Below, piece by piece: positions 3,020 through 35,819 of a DNA stretch of 41,260 bases. Within the stretch, counting starts at the first letter, position 1; every line of letters begins with the position of its first letter. The stretch is from Synergistaceae bacterium (GTDB lineage: Bacteria > Synergistota > Synergistia > Synergistales > Aminobacteriaceae), in assembly GCA_031272145.1 (NCBI GenBank), contig JAISUL010000038.1, forward strand, positions 1-41,260. Reading direction: 5' to 3'. A model generated the notes under the pieces. It saw nothing but the letters and a program-made list of their open reading frames with translations. It searched no databases and was not told the origin of the DNA. Made by a program: the position numbers and the translations under genes.

Positions 3020-3368
3020 TCAGCTGAATGACGGCCATAGGGGCGCCGTCGCCCAAGCGTTCACCCAGCTTGACTATGCGCGTGTAGCCGCCCTTGTCAA
3101 ACGAGGCGTAGCGCGGAGCTAGCTCGTCAAACAGCTTGACTATGGCGGCCTTGTGCGGCATGCGGGCGCGCACCAGCCGGCGGTCTTGAACCGTGCCGCC
3201 TCTAGCCCGCGTTATCAGCTTCTCGGCCACGCGCCGAAGCTCTTTGGCGCGAGTGACGGTCGTCTTCACATGGCCGTGCAGAAAAAGGCACGCCGCCATG
3301 TTGGACAACATCATCACGCGATGGCTCCCGAAGCGGCCAAGCGTTCTGTGGTCCATGCGGTGTCTCAT
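3009..3368 (-). CDS. rplQ: 50S ribosomal protein L17
   Basis: The 119 residues match bacterial L17: a start near MRHRMDHRTLGR, the SHRVMMLSNMAACLF helix, TTVTRAKELRRVAEKLITRAR, and the final GDGAPMAVIQLIE strand. L17 sits near the exit of the large-subunit peptide tunnel. The ATG overlaps the rpoA stop by four bases (ATGA), so the last ribosomal gene of the alpha operon is translationally coupled to the giant alpha subunit. The normal length and sequence here argue that the surrounding reading frames are sound and that the long rpoA frame is not a sequencing artefact. Confidence 0.97.
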   Translation of the reverse strand: MRHRMDHRTLGRFGSHRVMMLSNMAACLFLHGHVKTTVTRAKELRRVAEKLITRARGGTVQDRRLVRARMPHKAAIVKLFDELAPRYASFDKGGYTRIVKLGERLGDGAPMAVIQLIER

Positions 3369-6300
3369 GCGATTTCCATCTCCTTAGGTGGTTCGTTGGC
3401 GGCCTCTGCCGACTTGGTTCTCCTGCGTCTGGGCTTCTGCACGTGTTCAGGCCGCGTGCGGGCACGTGCCATATACTCTTCGAGACCGTTATCCAAAAAG
3501 TCGCGTAGTTCCTCACGGGATTTTGCGCCAAGGCCATGCAGCCCGTCAAGCCCGGTAGTCCACTGCTCGATGATGTCATCGAGAAAATGAAGTCCGGCGC
3601 GGATGAGGGCGTTCCGCGTGCGGCGTGAAAGCGGCAAATCCTCCGTGGGGACACGAGGTGGCAAAGGCCCCGTATTCTGCCAGCCGCCCATGGCTTTCTC
3701 TATGTCTCCGAAGCAGCGGCTAACTATCTCCGCCGCCTCGCACATGGCCGACTCCGGCGTGGCCACGCCGTTGGTCCGCACGTCCATAACCAGCTTCTCG
3801 AAGTCCGTCATCTGTCCGACGCGCGCGGCCTCGACTTCGTAGCTGAACCGCAGAACCGGCGAGAAAACGGCGTCCGTCATCAGCGCACCAGCCGGAATGT
3901 GGTCCGGCCTGGGGCGTTCCGCCGTGATGTAGCCGAAGCCATGCTCCACAAAAAGGTCAAGGGCTATGTCCGCTCCGTCCTCCAGAGTGCAGAGCACCGC
4001 GTCGGGGTCAATGAACTCGATCGACGTGTCGCCGCTCAGGTCTATATCGGAAGCTCTGACGACCTTAGGCCCCGTCGCGGCGAGGCGCAGCTTCCGCATC
4101 CCCTCATCACTGACGGAGCGAATCGGCAGACGCTTCAGGTTCATCAGAAGCTCCATGACGTTCTCCTTGACGCCGCTAATGATGCCGAACGGAGAAAGAA
4201 CGTCGGGACTCGGCGAAGGCAGTGGCCTGCCCAAAGCCAGCCTCGGGTTCTTGCGCCTCAGGGCGTTCTCTATGGCGTTCACGCAGTCCGCGCCGAAGAC
4301 CGGCTCGTCACGGAGGTTCAGGCATCTCTCGCGCAGGGCTCTCTTGATTAGCTCAATGGCGTTCGCCGTAAAAGCCGGCTCGCCGCAAAGGTTAAGCCCT
4401 CTGGCGCGCAGCGCCGCGACCAGCCGATCGACGTCGGGTGCGTCGAAAACAGCCCTGGATGGCACCGAACCGAGCTCCAAGCCCATTTTTTTCAGTGACT
4501 CCTCGATGACGTTGACGGCTGCGTCCTTGATGCCCTTGATCTTCAGGAGTTCATCCCGCGTCTTGGCCGCGAGCCTGCCCAGCGTCAGGAGGCCGCTCTT
4601 CTTGAGCGCGTCCCTCTTGTCGCTCGGCAGCTCCTTTATCTCGTCCACCGAGGTTCCTACGACGTTCGATTTGCCGCCAAGCTCGAGGCCCTTCTCCCTT
4701 AGAGCGGCCTCAATTCTGTCAACGGCTGACGAGTCGAAAGCGGGCTTGCCGGTCATGGCGCTGCTGAAGGCCTTCAAGGCGTCGTCCACAGCCTTCTCGT
4801 AGTTACCGCCCACGCCTGCGAGCTTGCGCCCCGTCCGTCTGGCATCCGCTAGGTCGGCGACCGTGTTGACTCCGCCGTTAGCGCGTATCTTGTTCAAAAG
4901 CTGCGTCGGGAGGCTCAGCGCCTCGATGGGCGAGTTCAGGCCAGTTGACTCCTCGCGGAGCTTCAAGCCCTTTCTCGCCAGGGCGTTCTTGATCTTCTCG
5001 ATCGCCAAGCCGCTGATCCTCTTCGGAACGCGAATCTCCTTCTCCGTGCTAGCGACCAGGCCGGCAGCGCTTGTGATCCCCCGGTCCTCGCGGAGCGTGT
5101 TCAGAATCAACGTCTTCATGTTGGCCGGCGTGATGTCGAGCTCGTTCAGCGGGAAGTCGTCGACGGCCTCGCTATCCTGCTCGTCGGGAAGCCTAATGCT
5201 CAGAAGGTCATCCCTCGTCCTCGCTATGAGCTCGCTCACCATGCGAACCCCAGCGTAGCGCAGGGCGTCTACGACTGCGTCCTTATCCCCTGCTATGCTT
5301 AGCATGTCGACTGGGAAGTCCGTTTCTGGCGTAATGACCTCGTATGGCGCACTGAGTGCCAGGAGGTCGTCCCTGGTTTTTGCGACAAGCGAGGCTGCCG
5401 TGGCGACGTCAGACTCACGCAGAATGCGGATGGCGTTCCCGTCGGGCATGGCGGCGGCGAGCTCCTCTATCGGAAAGTCGGAATCGACGTCCACTTTCTT
5501 GATCCGCACATCACGAAGCTCTTCGGCCCTCTTTTTGACGAGCCTGTCCACCGTATCCAGCCCCTCGGCGCGGAGCGCTGCAAGTATGGCGGCCTTCCCA
5601 CCGTTTTTGTCCTCGCCGTCAGAGTCTGGGATGTTGAGCACGTCAATGCTGATGCCTTGCCCGACGTGCTGGTTCTCGACCTTCATTGCCAGAAGGTCGT
5701 CTCTGCTCTTGGCCACGAGCTCTCCGCCCCTGTGTATCTTGACGTAGCTGAGCGCCGCCGCGACCTGCTTGTTTAGATAGGAAGGCTCTATATCCAGATC
5801 GTCCACCGAAAAGTCCTCGGGCGGCCTGCTGAGATCCAGTCCTCTTTCGTGAAGCGCCGCCTCGATTCGGCCAACGGACTCCGCGTCGAATATCGGGGCG
5901 TTATCCCCGCCGAGCAGGGCGGAGAGAGCGTCGTCTATCTTTTTCTGCGACGACTCGGCGGCGCCCTTGAGCTTTACTCCGGCCCTCTGGGCGTTGACGA
6001 GGTCGCCTATGGTGCCTACGCCGTTGTTTTTGATGACGTTCATAAGCTGCGTATTGACTCCCAACTCACCCAAGACGTCCACAGGCGCGCTCATGTCGGC
6101 CGACTCGGTGTTGCGGAGCTTAACCGACAGGAGCTCGTCCTTTGTCTTGGCGATCAGGTCGTCCATAACCATGACTATGCCAGCGGCGTGGAGCGACCGC
6201 ACGACCTCGTCCGGAAGGCCGAGCTCGCTCACGGGGAAGTCCACCGGGCGTACGGCGGTCACTGCCGCGCCGCGAAGCGAGGACAGCATAACCCTCTTCA

Positions 6301-7402
6301 TGGCGTTGCCGAGCGTCATGCCATAGCCGCGTTCGAGCGGCTCCAAGGTAACGCGCCCGACCGTCGGAGTGCTCTCTGCTATCTTCAGCCTAGGGTGGTT
6401 CGGCAGCGGGTCGGGAGGCAGCGGAGGCAGGTTCTCTCCCAACTTGAGGCCGAACTTCTCGTCCAGCTTTTTCTCTATCTCCAGGACTGAGACCCTGCCG
6501 AGGCCCTTGAGCCTGAGCAGCTCCTCCCGCGTGGTCTTTACCAGGTCTCCGATGGTTGTTATGCCCTCGCGCTGAAGGCAGTTTTCGCTTCGGATGGAAA
6601 GCCCCAGAGGATGAACCATCATGCGCAGCACGTCCGGGTCTAGGGGCTTTGCTGCCCCTGTTCCGGGGTTAGTCTCCACGTTGACCCATTTTAGGTCGTC
6701 CGCCATGTTGTCGAAGTACATGCGAACGGTATGGGCGGCCTCGCGCACGGCGTCCTTGGGTGTCATGGCTCGGTTCGTCCACAGATCGATGACCAGCCTC
6801 TCCTCAGCGCTGTTCTCGTTCTCGACTGCGTAGTTGACGCGCTGAACCGGGGTGAACAGCGCGTCCGCTAGGAGCGCATCCACCGGCAGAATCTGGACAC
6901 CGTTCGGCGTCGTCGGCCTCGGGCGCTCGCACGAGAGGTATCCGGTGCCGCTGTCGATGTAGATGTCCATCTCAAGGCTGTGCCCCTCTTCGAGCGTGCA
7001 TATGGGCGCGTCAGGGTTGACGAACTCGACGTCGGGGCCGTGAAGTATGTCCCCAGCCGTGACGAGCTTCGGCCCCCTGGTCTCCAGGCGCAGCGGCGCG
7101 CGCGAGCGGAAGTCCAGCTCAGAGATGCTGTCCAAGCGGAGCGGCACGCGCTTAAGGTTCATCAAAATCTCTATGACGTCCTCACGAACCCCCGGCACGG
7201 TGCTGAACTCGTGTAGCACACCGTCTATTCGGACAGCCGCGATGGCCGCGCCGTGTATGGACGAAAGCAGAACGCGCCGCAGAGCGTTGCCGACGGTCAG
7301 CCCGTATCCTTTGCCGAGGGGTTCGACGATCAGACGTCCATGAAGAGAGGGAGAGCCGTCCGGCTCCTTCGCTGGATTGCTCTCTTCCAACTTGATCTCC
7401 AA
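3365..7402 (-). CDS. rpoA: Tandem-fused RNA polymerase alpha subunit with an inserted array of alpha-CTD-like modules
   Basis: One uninterrupted 1345-residue frame replaces the usual ~330-residue alpha. Residues 1-235 are an alpha-NTD (GYGLTVGNALRRVLLSS dimerisation helix, then GVREDVIEILMNLKRVP) and 256-323 a CTD. This CTD keeps the DNA-contact set (E. coli numbering R265, N268, G296, S299, E302 = R271, N274, G302, S305, E308; K291 is R297). Residues 338-385 restart an NTD (GYGMTLGNAMKRVMLSS). It is then split by ~680 residues of repeats and resumes at 1066-1235 (GVKENVMELLMNLKRLP). A last CTD (1247-1308) and a basic tail follow. Matching segments of the two NTDs share 23 of 37 and 13 of 19 residues, so this is an old, diverged duplication. 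TTG at 7402 is the only start: an in-frame TGA lies 9 nt upstream and no Met follows until inside the fold. It lies 17 nt after rpsK; rpsD is missing between them. Confidence 0.95.
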   Translation of the reverse strand: MEIKLEESNPAKEPDGSPSLHGRLIVEPLGKGYGLTVGNALRRVLLSSIHGAAIAAVRIDGVLHEFSTVPGVREDVIEILMNLKRVPLRLDSISELDFRSRAPLRLETRGPKLVTAGDILHGPDVEFVNPDAPICTLEEGHSLEMDIYIDSGTGYLSCERPRPTTPNGVQILPVDALLADALFTPVQRVNYAVENENSAEERLVIDLWTNRAMTPKDAVREAAHTVRMYFDNMADDLKWVNVETNPGTGAAKPLDPDVLRMMVHPLGLSIRSENCLQREGITTIGDLVKTTREELLRLKGLGRVSVLEIEKKLDEKFGLKLGENLPPLPPDPLPNHPRLKIAESTPTVGRVTLEPLERGYGMTLGNAMKRVMLSSLRGAAVTAVRPVDFPVSELGLPDEVVRSLHAAGIVMVMDDLIAKTKDELLSVKLRNTESADMSAPVDVLGELGVNTQLMNVIKNNGVGTIGDLVNAQRAGVKLKGAAESSQKKIDDALSALLGGDNAPIFDAESVGRIEAALHERGLDLSRPPEDFSVDDLDIEPSYLNKQVAAALSYVKIHRGGELVAKSRDDLLAMKVENQHVGQGISIDVLNIPDSDGEDKNGGKAAILAALRAEGLDTVDRLVKKRAEELRDVRIKKVDVDSDFPIEELAAAMPDGNAIRILRESDVATAASLVAKTRDDLLALSAPYEVITPETDFPVDMLSIAGDKDAVVDALRYAGVRMVSELIARTRDDLLSIRLPDEQDSEAVDDFPLNELDITPANMKTLILNTLREDRGITSAAGLVASTEKEIRVPKRISGLAIEKIKNALARKGLKLREESTGLNSPIEALSLPTQLLNKIRANGGVNTVADLADARRTGRKLAGVGGNYEKAVDDALKAFSSAMTGKPAFDSSAVDRIEAALREKGLELGGKSNVVGTSVDEIKELPSDKRDALKKSGLLTLGRLAAKTRDELLKIKGIKDAAVNVIEESLKKMGLELGSVPSRAVFDAPDVDRLVAALRARGLNLCGEPAFTANAIELIKRALRERCLNLRDEPVFGADCVNAIENALRRKNPRLALGRPLPSPSPDVLSPFGIISGVKENVMELLMNLKRLPIRSVSDEGMRKLRLAATGPKVVRASDIDLSGDTSIEFIDPDAVLCTLEDGADIALDLFVEHGFGYITAERPRPDHIPAGALMTDAVFSPVLRFSYEVEAARVGQMTDFEKLVMDVRTNGVATPESAMCEAAEIVSRCFGDIEKAMGGWQNTGPLPPRVPTEDLPLSRRTRNALIRAGLHFLDDIIEQWTTGLDGLHGLGAKSREELRDFLDNGLEEYMARARTRPEHVQKPRRRRTKSAEAANEPPKEMEIA
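3479..4207 (-). other. rpoA domain block: remainder of the second alpha subunit (copy B)
   Basis: Residues 1066-1235 are the rest of the second NTD (FIDPDAVLCTLEDG matches FVNPDAPICTLEEG of copy A; YITAERPRP matches YLSCERPRP). Residues 1247-1308 are the second CTD, with LSRRTRNAL retaining R265 and N268 equivalents (R1261, N1264) and LGAKSREEL retaining G296, S299 and E302 equivalents. K291 is replaced by Gly. The first 48 residues of copy B lie at 6248-6391, on the other side of the insert. Confidence 0.88.
4208..6247 (-). repeat. rpoA insert: nine alpha-CTD-like helix-hairpin-helix modules plus repeated helical tails
   Basis: Residues 386-1065 interrupt the second NTD. Modules begin near 388, 439, 530, 585, 642, 696, 750, 824 and 917. 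Each opens with a [FS]P[IV][DE]xL-like strand and carries a [TS]-x-x-x-L-[IV]-x-x-[TS]-[RK]-[DE]-[DE]-L-L core, for example DLIAKTKDELLSV, ELVAKSRDDLLAM, SLVAKTRDDLLAL, ELIARTRDDLLSI and RLAAKTRDELLKI. That is the consensus of alpha-CTD, but the R265 and N268 equivalents are lost. Blocks 439-525 and 824-908 are homologous to each other, including their RIEAALxExGLxL tails. Residues 983-1055 contain three 25-residue tandem copies of that tail helix. Identity to alpha-CTD is by eye; DNA binding is not implied. Confidence 0.85.
6434..7402 (-). other. rpoA domain block: first, complete alpha subunit (copy A)
   Basis: Residues 1-323 of the fused protein form a full alpha subunit: NTD, linker rich in Pro and Gly (about 243-256) and CTD ending in GLKLGE. 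A normal gene would stop here; instead the chain continues through a Pro-rich linker (ENLPPLPPDPLPNHP) into copy B. Both determinants expected for function, the dimerisation helix and the helix-hairpin-helix of the CTD, look intact. Confidence 0.9.
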
Positions 7403-32439: not shown

Positions 32440-34149
32440 TTGAACAATCTAATAAACGCCGCCCGCGACGTCCTCAGCATCGCCGAGGCAGCCGAATACG
32501 CTAGCCGTCTTCTCGGAAAAACGGTAACACCGTCCAACATCTCCTACCTCATTCAGTACGGGCGCGTCGCGCGCGTCGACATAGACGGAGTAGGCGGAGT
32601 GTCTAGACGCGAGCTTGAGGAGTATTACAGCTCTTACGGCCGCGCCTACAAACAGAAGTTCGGCATGGGGGAGACTGCTTCCTCGGAGGCGATTGACCCT
32701 TCAGAGACGACCGTCCCCAATTCCGTCAACTGGACGCTGTCCTTCGCTCAGTACAAGGAGGCGGAGACCACCAAGCACGTACACCGGCTGCACCCGTACA
32801 AGGGGAAGTTCATCCCACAGCTTGTGGAGTACTTCATCGACGGGCATACGGACGAGTTCAAGCGGGACGTCTACTTCCACCCGGGGGACGTGATTCTCGA
32901 CCCATTCGCGGGCAGCGGCACGACCCTAGTCCAGGCCTGCGAGTGCGGCATGCACGCGGTCGGAGTCGACGTCTCGGCCTTCAACGCGATGATAGCCAAC
33001 TGCAAGGTCGCGCGGTGCGACCTCATCGACCTCCAGACCGAGGCGATGCGAGTATCGGACGTGCTGAAGGAGAGCGTCGCTCGTTCTCGCATCCCTGAGT
33101 TCGAGGCGCGCCTGACGGACGCACTGGCCAGTTATAACGAGCAGTATTTCCCCTCCCCCGAGTATCGGTACAGGCTGCGCCGCGGCGAGATCGACGAGGA
33201 CGAGTACGGGCCAGCGCAGGCGGAGGCGTTCCTGCCCGTGTACCGCGCGCTGGTCGCCGAGTACGGGGTAGCGCTCCTCCAAGGGGTCTCAGAGGAGTCA
33301 GTCGAGGGAAGCAAGCCCCCCGACCCCAACCCCCAAGTCGATGACGGCTCGTTCTTAGGGAAATGGTACCTGCCCAGCGTGCGACGAGAGATAGACGTTA
33401 TCTTCGGCGAGATCGAGAAAGTCCGGCCTCCGGAGACGAAGCGGGCGCTCTCCGTTGCGCTCAGCCGCGCGATGAGGAGCTGCCGCGCCACGACTCACTC
33501 CGACCTAGCAACCCTGCTAGAGCCGGTCTCGGAGCCATACTACTGCACGAAGCACGGCAAGGTCTGCCGCCCGCTGTTCAGCATGGCCAGGTGGTGGGAC
33601 AGGTACGCAAAGGACACGGTCGCGCGCCTGGCCGAGTTCGAGGGGCTCCGGCGGCTCCGCGGGGCCGCGACGCACCAGCTCTGCCTAGTCGGCGACAGCA
33701 GAACTATAGACCTGCCCTCCGCCCTAGAGTGCGCCTCCTCTCCGGCGCTCGCCGCGCTCGCCGCGAACCGCGGGATAGCCGGAATCTTCTCCTCCCCGCC
33801 CTACGTGGGGATGATCGACTACCACGAGCAGCACGCCTACGCGTACGAGCTCTTCGGCTTCGAGCGCAACGACTCGGCCGAGATAGGCCCCATGTTCCGA
33901 GGCAAGACCAAGGATGCCCAGGAGGCCTACGTGGAGGGCGTAGCGCAGGTGCTCCTGAACTGCAAGAAAAGCTTGGCCAACGGGTATAACGTTTTCCTCG
34001 TGGCGAACGACAGACGTAACCTCTACCCAGCGATAGCCGCCAAGGCCGGTATGAGGATAGTGAACCGCTTCCACCGCCCGGTGCTGAACCGCTCCGAGAA
34101 GGACAGGACGGCGTACTCGGAGACGATATTCCATATGAAGGAGGCTTAG
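32440..34149 (+). CDS. DNA methyltransferase (N4-cytosine/N6-adenine class) of a type II restriction-modification pair
   Basis: The 569-residue protein starts at TTG after AAGGAGG. Residues 10-65 look like an excisionase/MerR-type winged helix (LSIAEAAEYASRLLGKTVTP, SRRELEEYY). Methyltransferase motif I is DPFAGSGTT (154-162) followed by AVGVDVSAFN, and motif IV is SSPPYVGMIDYHE (451-463). The ~290 residues between them probably include the target-recognition region, giving an alpha-like motif order. SPPY suggests exocyclic amino methylation (m4C more often than m6A). It lies 35 nt before a restriction endonuclease gene. Its last 28 codons are duplicated after that gene (34954-35035). Confidence 0.88.
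   Translation: MNNLINAARDVLSIAEAAEYASRLLGKTVTPSNISYLIQYGRVARVDIDGVGGVSRRELEEYYSSYGRAYKQKFGMGETASSEAIDPSETTVPNSVNWTLSFAQYKEAETTKHVHRLHPYKGKFIPQLVEYFIDGHTDEFKRDVYFHPGDVILDPFAGSGTTLVQACECGMHAVGVDVSAFNAMIANCKVARCDLIDLQTEAMRVSDVLKESVARSRIPEFEARLTDALASYNEQYFPSPEYRYRLRRGEIDEDEYGPAQAEAFLPVYRALVAEYGVALLQGVSEESVEGSKPPDPNPQVDDGSFLGKWYLPSVRREIDVIFGEIEKVRPPETKRALSVALSRAMRSCRATTHSDLATLLEPVSEPYYCTKHGKVCRPLFSMARWWDRYAKDTVARLAEFEGLRRLRGAATHQLCLVGDSRTIDLPSALECASSPALAALAANRGIAGIFSSPPYVGMIDYHEQHAYAYELFGFERNDSAEIGPMFRGKTKDAQEAYVEGVAQVLLNCKKSLANGYNVFLVANDRRNLYPAIAAKAGMRIVNRFHRPVLNRSEKDRTAYSETIFHMKEA
34062..34143 (+). repeat. 82-bp direct repeat, copy 1 (end of methyltransferase gene)
   Basis: This segment encodes the last residues of the methyltransferase, starting NRFHRPVLNRSEKDRTAYSE. 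It recurs 892 bp downstream at 34954-35035 with about five mismatches. The differences are mostly silent or conservative (K to R, T to A) in the methyltransferase frame. Confidence 0.95.
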
Positions 34150-34177
34150 CCTCCGAGGAGCCTTAGACTCCAAGGAG
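34140..34177 (+). repeat. Hairpin-repeat units spanning the methyltransferase stop and the endonuclease ribosome-binding site
   Basis: GGAGGC-TTA-GCCTCC (34140-34154) contains the methyltransferase stop codon in its loop. It is followed by GGAG-CC-TTA-GA-CTCC and by CTCCAAGGAG. The same architecture (TTA loop, CYCCAAGGRG core) is seen upstream of the TAXI gene. The AAGGAGG at the 3' edge is the ribosome-binding site of the endonuclease gene. Confidence 0.75.
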
Positions 34178-34184
34178 GAATAAG

Positions 34185-34979
34185 ATGCGGCAGAATTTGC
34201 GGAGCGAAGTTGAGAACATCATCAGAGTGTGCCTTAGGAAGAAGCTCCTGGTCTATACGCCGGAGAGTACAAACATGCCGTTTCACTATAGGCTGCTCGG
34301 CCGCGACAGGATGGCGCTGTTTTCGTTTATACATTCATTCAGTACGTCTTTCGGGACGTCGATCTTTGAACCAGTCGCGGTTGCGCTGGCGCGTGAGCGT
34401 TTCGTGCGTGCCGAAAAACAGTACGCTCTCGGAAAGGAGATATACGCCGCCTGCCAGAGAGCTATTCAAGACATCATAACCAATCTGTCGATAGCGCCTC
34501 GTCCCGATAAAACGCGCGAGCTGCGCATATTGCGAGAGCACCTGAACGGAGATTTCAGAGAGCTTAAAACGGTCAGGGCAGACCTGTTTCTTGAGGATAA
34601 GAACGGCGTTCGATACTTGTTCGACATCAAATCGCCCAAACCAAACAGCAACGAGTTCAAACGCTTCAAGCAGACGTTGCTGGAGTGGGCAGGCATCGAA
34701 ATGACCGCTCGGCCTGACGTTACCGTAAACACGTTCATCGCCATTCCATATAACCCCTACGAGCCAGAGCCCTATAAGCGCTGGACTATGGCTGGCATGA
34801 TCGACGTCGGTGCTGAGTTGAAGGTCGCCGCTGAGTTCTGGGACTTTATCGGTGGCGATGGTGCCTACGAAGAGCTTCTCGATTGTTTCGAGCGAGTGGG
34901 TGTTCAAATGCGCGATGAAATAGACGAGCGCTTCAAGGAGTTCGTCAAGATGGGAACCGCTTCCACCGTCCGGTGCTGA
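34185..34979 (+). CDS. TdeIII-like type II restriction endonuclease
   Basis: The 264-residue protein has MPFHYRLLGRDRMALFSFIH, SFGTSIFEPVA, a PD-(D/E)XK-like core with D133 (VRADLFLED) and D147-x-K149 (YLFDIKSPKP), and IPYNPYEPEPYKRWT. I recall these features from the TdeIII restriction endonuclease family, whose prototype is reported to cut GGNCC; the specificity here is not read from the sequence. It has a strong ribosome-binding site (AAGGAGG). Base composition is visibly less G+C-rich than its neighbours, suggesting transfer. The natural C terminus ends at about residue 256: the final GTASTVRC is translated out of frame from the duplicated methyltransferase end, so the gene was joined there by recombination. 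Confidence 0.78.
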   Translation: MRQNLRSEVENIIRVCLRKKLLVYTPESTNMPFHYRLLGRDRMALFSFIHSFSTSFGTSIFEPVAVALARERFVRAEKQYALGKEIYAACQRAIQDIITNLSIAPRPDKTRELRILREHLNGDFRELKTVRADLFLEDKNGVRYLFDIKSPKPNSNEFKRFKQTLLEWAGIEMTARPDVTVNTFIAIPYNPYEPEPYKRWTMAGMIDVGAELKVAAEFWDFIGGDGAYEELLDCFERVGVQMRDEIDERFKEFVKMGTASTVRC

Positions 34980-35035
34980 ACCGCTCCGAGAGGGACAGAG
35001 CGGCGTACTCGGAGACGATATTCCATATGAAAGAG
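34954..35035 (+). pseudogene. Orphan 3' end of a second methyltransferase gene (direct repeat, copy 2)
   Basis: In the third frame relative to the endonuclease this reads NRFHRPVLNRSERDRAAYSE, then TIFHMKERS and TAG (ending 35043). It is homologous to the end of the upstream methyltransferase but with amino-acid differences, so it derives from a related allele and not a fresh copy. The endonuclease frame runs into it and stops at 34979. Confidence 0.85.
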
Positions 35036-35047
35036 CGGTCGTAGCCC

Positions 35048-35372
35048 GGCCTACCCCCCCCCACTCTCAGGTGTTGCAGTGTTGCTTACAGCCCATGAAC
35101 CAGCACCACCGTTGGGCTGGCGGCTGCAACAGGGGGTATGATCTCTGACGTTGCAGCTGTTGCAGAACTCCCCCCTCCATGAGGCCGCAGACCTCGGATG
35201 CCGCTTATTTCCTTATTTCACACTAAAAAGCTGCTGCAGTATGGCCCTCGCCAGATCCAGCTGCAACATCTGCATCACCAGAGATCACCCCCCTTGTTGC
35301 AGCCTCAATCCCAGTGACCGTGTGGGTTTGAGGCTTTAAGCAACACTGCAACACCGGAGAGGGGGGTAGGCC
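35048..35372. repeat. 325-bp nested palindromic element (MITE-like or structured RNA)
   Basis: Outer arms 35048-35088 and 35337-35372 are inverted copies (GGCCTACCCCC and GGTGTTGCAGTGTTGCTTA in both, with a few differences between). Inner arms 35122-35147 and 35279-35304 (GGCTGCAACA and GATCTCTG in both) and a third pair, near 35150-35165 and 35261-35276, are nested inside. Between the outer and inner arms sit two side hairpins: CAGCCCA/TGGGCTG at 35089-35119 and GCCTCAA/TTGAGGC at 35302-35334. The whole folds as a branched cruciform with an unpaired centre of about 80 nt. GTTGCAG recurs in several arms. There is no transposase and no supported gene inside. Confidence 0.8.
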
Positions 35373-35437
35373 CCATGAGCCGGGGTTGCGAAAAGAGCGT
35401 TCAGACATTTTTGCACGCATTTGGGTCGGCTGCCCTC
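35373..35437. other. Intergenic stretch with no recognised feature
   Basis: Together with the palindrome, leader and promoters this belongs to the 35041-35627 gene-free zone. No supported reading frame, tRNA or terminator was seen between the palindrome and the first of the two promoters. Confidence 0.5.
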
Positions 35438-35466
35438 TTGACTTCCCGGGCTGGCTGTGCTATGCT
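35438..35466 (+). promoter_or_regulatory. Strong sigma-70 promoter P1 (extended -10)
   Basis: TTGACT (35438-35443), 17 bp, TATGCT (35461-35466), preceded by TG one base upstream. The 18 bases GGCTGTGCTATGCTCTTT and the 8 bases CTTGACTT are identical in P2 at 35785-35813; only eight spacer bases differ. The transcript would start near 35473 and carry a ~155-nt leader before the small gene at 35628. Confidence 0.75.
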
Positions 35467-35472
35467 CTTTCA

Positions 35473-35627
35473 CGAGGGCTCGTTTGCAGCATGGGTCACG
35501 CCACTCGGGTTGGAGGTCTTGGTCCCTCCCGACTAAGCCCGCCTGAGGAAGTCCCCCCGTGGAGTCTGGACGAGTCCCTCATCCGTTAAATGGCGTGGGG
35601 GAGCCCGCTCCCTGGAGGTGAGAAGTT
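35473..35627 (+). ncRNA. Structured 5' leader of the small antitoxin-like gene
   Basis: The leader predicted from P1 contains the hairpins GGAGG-TCTTGGTC-CCTCC (near 35512-35529) and GGGAG-CCCG-CTCCC just before the ribosome-binding site GGAGGTGAG. The second hairpin is close enough to affect access to the start codon. No known riboswitch core was recognised. Confidence 0.35.
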
Positions 35628-35756: not shown

Positions 35757-35784
35757 AAGTGTTGACTGCCCAGGCAGATAGGGC

Positions 35785-35813
35785 TTGACTTTCTATGAGG
35801 GCTGTGCTATGCT
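35785..35813 (+). promoter_or_regulatory. Strong sigma-70 promoter P2 (near-copy of P1)
   Basis: TTGACT (35785-35790), 17 bp, TATGCT (35808-35813) with the same TG-extended -10 and flanks as P1. It lies 150 bp before the 3' end of the convergent unknown gene and directly in front of a hairpin-rich ~85-nt segment ending in a terminator. Confidence 0.75.
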
Positions 35814-35819
35814 CTTTTT

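Follow-up and report, generated by a model that had tools for sequence, protein, structure and literature searches.

An endonuclease gene bracketed by copies of its partner methyltransferase's 3' end: an apparent recombination scar in a type II restriction-modification operon of a Synergistaceae bacterium

Introduction

How does a restriction endonuclease gene come to lie between two copies of the 3' end of its partner methyltransferase gene, and does the arrangement provide a dedicated way of discarding the nuclease while the protective enzyme is kept? Both questions are raised by a locus in the draft genome of a Synergistaceae bacterium. Solitary methyltransferases are widely held to come from restriction-modification (R-M) systems that have lost the endonuclease, and a repeat built from the methyltransferase's own end would offer a simple physical route for such a loss.

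R-M systems that are flanked by direct repeats and deletable are already known. In Helicobacter pylori, direct repeats of 65-395 bp, with 86-98% identity within a strain, flank six type II systems, and the strains lacking those systems have single-copy sites (PMC10423294). For HpyAII (HpyII) of H. pylori, PMC7494987, citing Aras et al. 2001, describes deletion or restoration by recombination at 80-bp flanking repeats. New in the present case is that one of the repeats is the methyltransferase gene itself, so that deletion would spare it. The window, by which we mean the whole stretch of 41,260 nucleotides analysed, is one entire contig of a 2.05-Mb draft genome in 107 contigs, probably metagenome-assembled; ~188 genomes of its phylum were available for comparison.

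Results

A type II operon with the order methyltransferase, endonuclease

The locus consists of a DNA methyltransferase gene (M) and an endonuclease gene (R) immediately downstream (Table 1). The motifs DPFAGSGTT and SPPY were read from the sequence of M, and R matches PF09520 (RE_TdeIII) with an E value of 3.1e-82 and 276 bits (cut-off 27.2), across positions 2-242 of the 242 in the model. Asp133 and Lys152 of R, invariant in an alignment of five divergent family members, would represent the conserved acidic and lysine residues of the nuclease core, for which a catalytic role is presumed. The motifs are intact. Given that R adjoins M and that the pairing is kept in relatives, the two genes are a type II R-M operon in the order M, then R.

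Table 1. Features of the M-R locus in window coordinates.
Feature	Position	Strand	Description
M, DNA methyltransferase gene	32440-34149	+	N6_N4_Mtase; 569 aa from TTG; PF01555, E 1.1e-12
Repeat copy 1	34062-34143	+	Final 27 M codons preceding the terminal Ala and stop
M-R intergenic stretch	34150-34184	+	Ribosome-binding site AAGGAGGA, 5 bp 5' of the R start
R, TdeIII-family type II restriction endonuclease, native part	34185-34952	+	256 aa; C-terminal end ...EIDERFKEFVKM; PF09520
Out-of-frame extension of R	34953-34979	+	GTASTVRC and stop, from copy 2, apparently replacing the lost R stop codon
Repeat copy 2 with its own M-frame end	34954-35044	+	Repeat 34954-35035, then CGG TCG TAG (Arg-Ser-stop); likely tail of a second M allele
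Inverted-repeat element	35048-35372	.	Just 3' of copy 2; second genomic copy elsewhere

Two further features touch the borders of M. A perfect palindrome, GGAGGCTTAGCCTCC, extends across the M stop codon (34140-34154), immediately 5' of R, and could influence the translation or transcription of R. A tRNA-Leu at the M start was considered as an integration site and dismissed: the ARAGORN call is weak and overlaps M, Rfam yields no tRNA match, and the relatives' loci have no counterpart.

The repeat consists of two methyltransferase gene ends

That R is bracketed by a direct repeat of the M end had been proposed in a first-pass annotation, and the repeat finder bears this out with two copies of 82 nt at 94% identity. 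By script, 77 of the 82 positions are identical, in exact runs of 15, 22, 6, 31 and 3, at a start-to-start spacing of 892 bp; the probability of at least 77 matches in 82 at one offset by chance is ~1e-37. The five differences are transitions, and each copy is in phase with the reading frame of M. The coordinates proposed earlier for copy 2 hold for the repeat, but the M stop codon of this copy is at 35042-35044, one base past the end that had been assigned.

As had likewise been noticed, the R frame runs into copy 2 out of frame and terminates there, so that the full frame, extension included, is 34185-34979. Since residue 256 of R ends at 34952 and copy 2 starts at 34954, copy 2 is recognizable on its left side as joined to R at the stop codon. 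On the right, the repeat simply runs out at the ends of the two M genes, Ala-stop in copy 1 and Arg-Ser-stop in copy 2. The first of these ends, KEA-stop, is followed like the M genes of relatives by a short spacer and R, and the second, KERS-stop, by unrelated DNA. Apart from M itself, the 2.05-Mb genome contains copy 2 and no other M-like sequence. Recombination between the copies had been predicted to delete R while preserving a complete M with a KERS end; a simulated 892-bp deletion gives exactly this product, M then reading ...NRFHRPVLNRSERDRAAYSETIFHMKERS before its stop codon in place of the present ...SEKDRTAYSETIFHMKEA.

Homologous loci have a single methyltransferase tail

Homologues of M, sought in 393 genomes of the phylum represented by L022, from a Spirochaetota metagenome-assembled genome (MAG), were detected in 23, with 47-60% identity, and 22 M loci were inspected (L022; L023, from a Bacteroidetes MAG; L042-L061). 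The Spirochaetota and Bacteroidetes loci share with the window the TdeIII-family R (PF09520), the N4/N6-type M, the gene order and the short spacer; they differ from it in that the second M tail after R is present in the window's genome only. R is placed immediately 3' of M in 16 of the 22 loci, the R match starting 16-62 bp beyond the M match, and further downstream in three (one past a 341-bp gap with a small ORF, two past an AIPR-family gene). The remaining three are a locus with an AIPR gene and just a trace of R (L055), one devoid of R (L049) and one at a contig end. None of the 22 revealed a second M tail after R, with the proviso that the locus cut by the contig end cannot show its downstream side; distant relatives have a single M tail.

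The R proteins of the relatives terminate at the position of the last residue before copy 2 in the window's R (...EIDEYFEKYKDM in L042; ...EIDEYFSKFKDM, ...EIDQHFTRYQ and the like in others). Because they stop just before the junction, the last eight residues of the R considered here are understood as an addition: the gene appears to have lost its stop codon and gained GTASTVRC out of frame. The M genes of the relatives finish in the same region as the two M ends of the window, with differing final residues (KEK, KEL, KEA or KEWR before the stop). With no relative possessing a second M tail, and with the relatives' R proteins ending at the junction, the repeat presents itself as a one-off, a real scar of past recombination that no other examined genome shares.

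Among 100-150 relatives from the window's phylum, no congeneric genome among them, no close homologue of M or R was found beyond the window, and two other TdeIII-family matches in the phylum are paired with unrelated methyltransferases. R and M had no close relatives in viral contigs, and in plasmid and phage records the R homologues were all distant (26-28%) and the M matches partial.

The relatives also display variation between M and R. An AIPR-family gene (PF10592) is located between the two in L062 (G353), L064 (G218) and L065 (G213); genomes G353 and G520 are ~88% identical on both sides and differ by a clean AIPR insertion of ~1.7 kb, which suggests a three-gene defence variant M-AIPR-R. 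M seemed at first to be solitary in L044, L050 and L055; R loss was rejected for L044 and L050, where an AIPR-family gene sits between M and R. In L067 (G193), a 98-aa ORF that has no Pfam match occupies the position between M and R.

Origin of the second copy

We consider it probable, though well short of assured, that the event was recombination of an incoming M-R segment with an M allele already resident, whose tail was stranded after R. The incoming (or rearranged) segment would have met a resident M gene or M-R locus, and with the R stop codon joined to a point inside the resident M, ~91 bp of the latter's 3' end would have been left behind R. Homology in M would have anchored one side, with the other joined through little or no homology. 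We infer both the direction of the event and its mechanism, a one-sided process of homology-facilitated illegitimate recombination or similar, which fits because the joint on the R side is at the R stop codon and M homology was available on the other. The by-products would be the eight extra R residues and an 82-bp repeat able to mediate an 892-bp deletion in which R is lost and M is kept.

Homology-facilitated illegitimate recombination has been proposed for the type VI secretion system (T6SS) effector modules of Vibrio cholerae, where old immunity genes are left downstream (PMC5361080). The likeness consists in a conserved gene that serves as anchor, a downstream module that is swapped and remnants of a protective gene further downstream; the gene types are different, and the remnant in the window is only a 3' fragment that has no function of its own.

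The first-pass annotation had assigned copy 2 to a second, related M allele on account of its amino acid differences. Derivation from an M gene end stands, but the differences are no proof of a second allele, since five random transitions produce at most two amino acid changes and no stop codon in ~20% of cases. A second allele is better argued from the ends themselves: each of the copies has a natural-looking M stop of its own, followed by DNA of its own. Two M alleles, of which one had R and the other lacked it or had another downstream region, best account for two such ends, and copy 2 likely derives from the second allele. We count in favour of recombination with a resident allele that the genome offers no other M homologue as possible donor of copy 2, and against it that trees of M and R exhibit neither a clear conflict nor clearly different origins.

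Base composition adds to the picture. The GC content at fourfold degenerate positions (GC4) is 0.80 for M, compared to a mean of 0.77 (sd 0.09) for host genes, and 0.63 for R, the total GC of which is below that of 99.6% of 224 genes; in relatives, M and R are nearly equal in GC. M being host-like, R being lower in GC and the relatives' genes being matched, the data suggest that R joined a longer-resident M, with the qualification that low expression or amino acid composition could contribute to the low GC of R.

The main rival is an insertion with long target duplication, which we judge unlikely while according it serious weight: R, possibly alone, would have landed in the 3' end of an M already resident, with ~82-91 bp of that target duplicated, both copies thus descending from a single M and having diverged by five transitions. 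Insertion of R-M DNA in this manner was inferred in H. pylori by Nobusato et al. 2000, according to the passages of PMC3031569 and PMC3874152 that cite the work. There, as in the window, direct repeats of variable and often considerable length border the R-M DNA; the window differs in that the bordered unit is R alone and the target would be its partner gene. The two copies are far closer to each other than either is to any other M, their length and identity are within the range of the H. pylori type II repeats (65-395 bp, 86-98%; PMC10423294), R differs from M in composition, and the five differences are compatible with neutral drift (P ~0.2). To arrive at the observed structure, however, the insert must start no more than two codons from the M stop, bring an in-frame stop one codon later and also retain the kind of spacer seen in natural M-R operons, and copy 2 still has an open M frame with a separate natural end.

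Two other routes have less to recommend them. A tandem duplication of M-R, followed by loss of most of the second unit except the M tail, would give the same final order from event types that are generally common; it requires two events, and the DNA 3' of copy 2 is unrelated and includes no remnant of R, which makes this history improbable. An assembly chimera of two strains might be contemplated for a draft genome so fragmented, in whose sample two M alleles could coexist. We find it scarcely credible, given that the joint of R and copy 2 has no shared stretch that would cause an overlap assembler to make it and that both copies keep distinct SNPs.

Site avoidance and the residence time of the endonuclease

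GGNCC, which we take to be the site of the TdeIII family, occurs 865 times in 320 kb of the window's genome against 2058 expected (0.42) and is the most avoided XXNYY palindrome in that sequence; GGWCC is reduced to 0.16 of expectation in the window's genome. Considered alone, this avoidance would argue against a recently arrived R. The argument is weakened by a control genome, G036, a member of the bacterium's family without this gene, where no TdeIII gene was detected and GGNCC and GGWCC amount to 0.35 and 0.08 of expectation. Avoidance as strong as this in G036 means that it cannot be credited to the present R, and its use as proof of long R activity was abandoned after the control. Searches for the SinI and Eco47II families in the window's genome and in G036, conducted without a positive control, gave no matches.

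Discussion

Possible deletion of the endonuclease through the repeat

Whatever its origin, the repeat could plausibly mediate a deletion confined to R. Direct repeats of 82 bp and 35 bp on E. coli plasmids recombine without RecA (PMC7063769). Deletion at this locus is credible because repeats of 82 bp recombine in this way and because repeat-flanked systems of H. pylori delete, and it would take R only because one of the repeats is M itself. The route might be RecA-independent slippage or RecA-dependent exchange. HpyAII is similar in having type II R-M genes between direct repeats of comparable length and identity, with recombination removing what is bracketed. Its repeats flank the whole cassette, however, so that M and R are lost together and can be regained, whereas those in the window flank R only, copy 1 being part of M, and R alone would leave. 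Deletion is demonstrated for HpyAII and is for the window a prediction from sequence.

A further step would be to regard the repeat as an evolved device that selection maintains for shedding R and keeping M. We consider this very improbable. The geometry does yield precisely the loss of R with retention of M, and deletion of R-M systems through direct repeats is documented for HpyAII (PMC10423294; PMC7494987). Yet the arrangement is conserved in none of the 22 relatives, R is frameshifted in about five of them and absent in one without any repeats, any null mutation in R would be equally safe and make a dedicated device unnecessary, and the repeat, besides being short, has five mismatches. Among the frameshifted genes is the R of L053, with a one-base deletion relative to the 99%-identical L052; some frameshifts in relatives may be sequencing errors. 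Nothing indicates that selection maintains the arrangement for the sake of R deletion, and the adaptive reading is unlikely. Highly doubtful, too, is the notion of a built-in, R-only excision route that is used in the population and generates a mixture of restricting and methylate-only cells.

The first-pass annotation had described the exit as built-in and one-way. The former is unsupported, no second M tail having been seen at the 22 homologous M loci. The latter does not strictly hold: unequal exchange between sister chromosomes would give a reciprocal product in which the R unit is tandemly duplicated, and transformation can bring R back, as described for HpyAII.

The present evidence amounts to a single scar and a useful case rather than a new system, a variant of the direct-repeat-flanked R-M arrangement. 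The locus is also a record of the way in which an R gene can become joined to a resident M, and deletion alleles, if found, would supply a clean natural example of R lost with M retained.

Other features of the window

The element directly behind copy 2 is an inverted repeat of ~310 bp forming a large imperfect hairpin, and its second copy (L037; contig C28 of the same genome, 13292-13598) is situated directly 3' of an rlmH-like gene; it looks like a small non-autonomous element or an extragenic palindromic repeat. A promoter-like 34-mer (TTGACT...TATGCT) is present in two copies further downstream (35437-35620 and 35784-35817), ahead of short, GC-rich and possibly structured segments that have no Rfam match. 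At the position of rpoA (3365-7402, minus strand), an ORF of 1345 aa encodes two RNA polymerase alpha subunits in tandem, with two matches each for RNA_pol_A_bac, RNA_pol_L and the alpha C-terminal domain (CTD); a long series of repeats resembling the alpha-CTD or helix-hairpin-helix motifs apparently lies between the two, and this tandem-alpha rpoA is very unusual.
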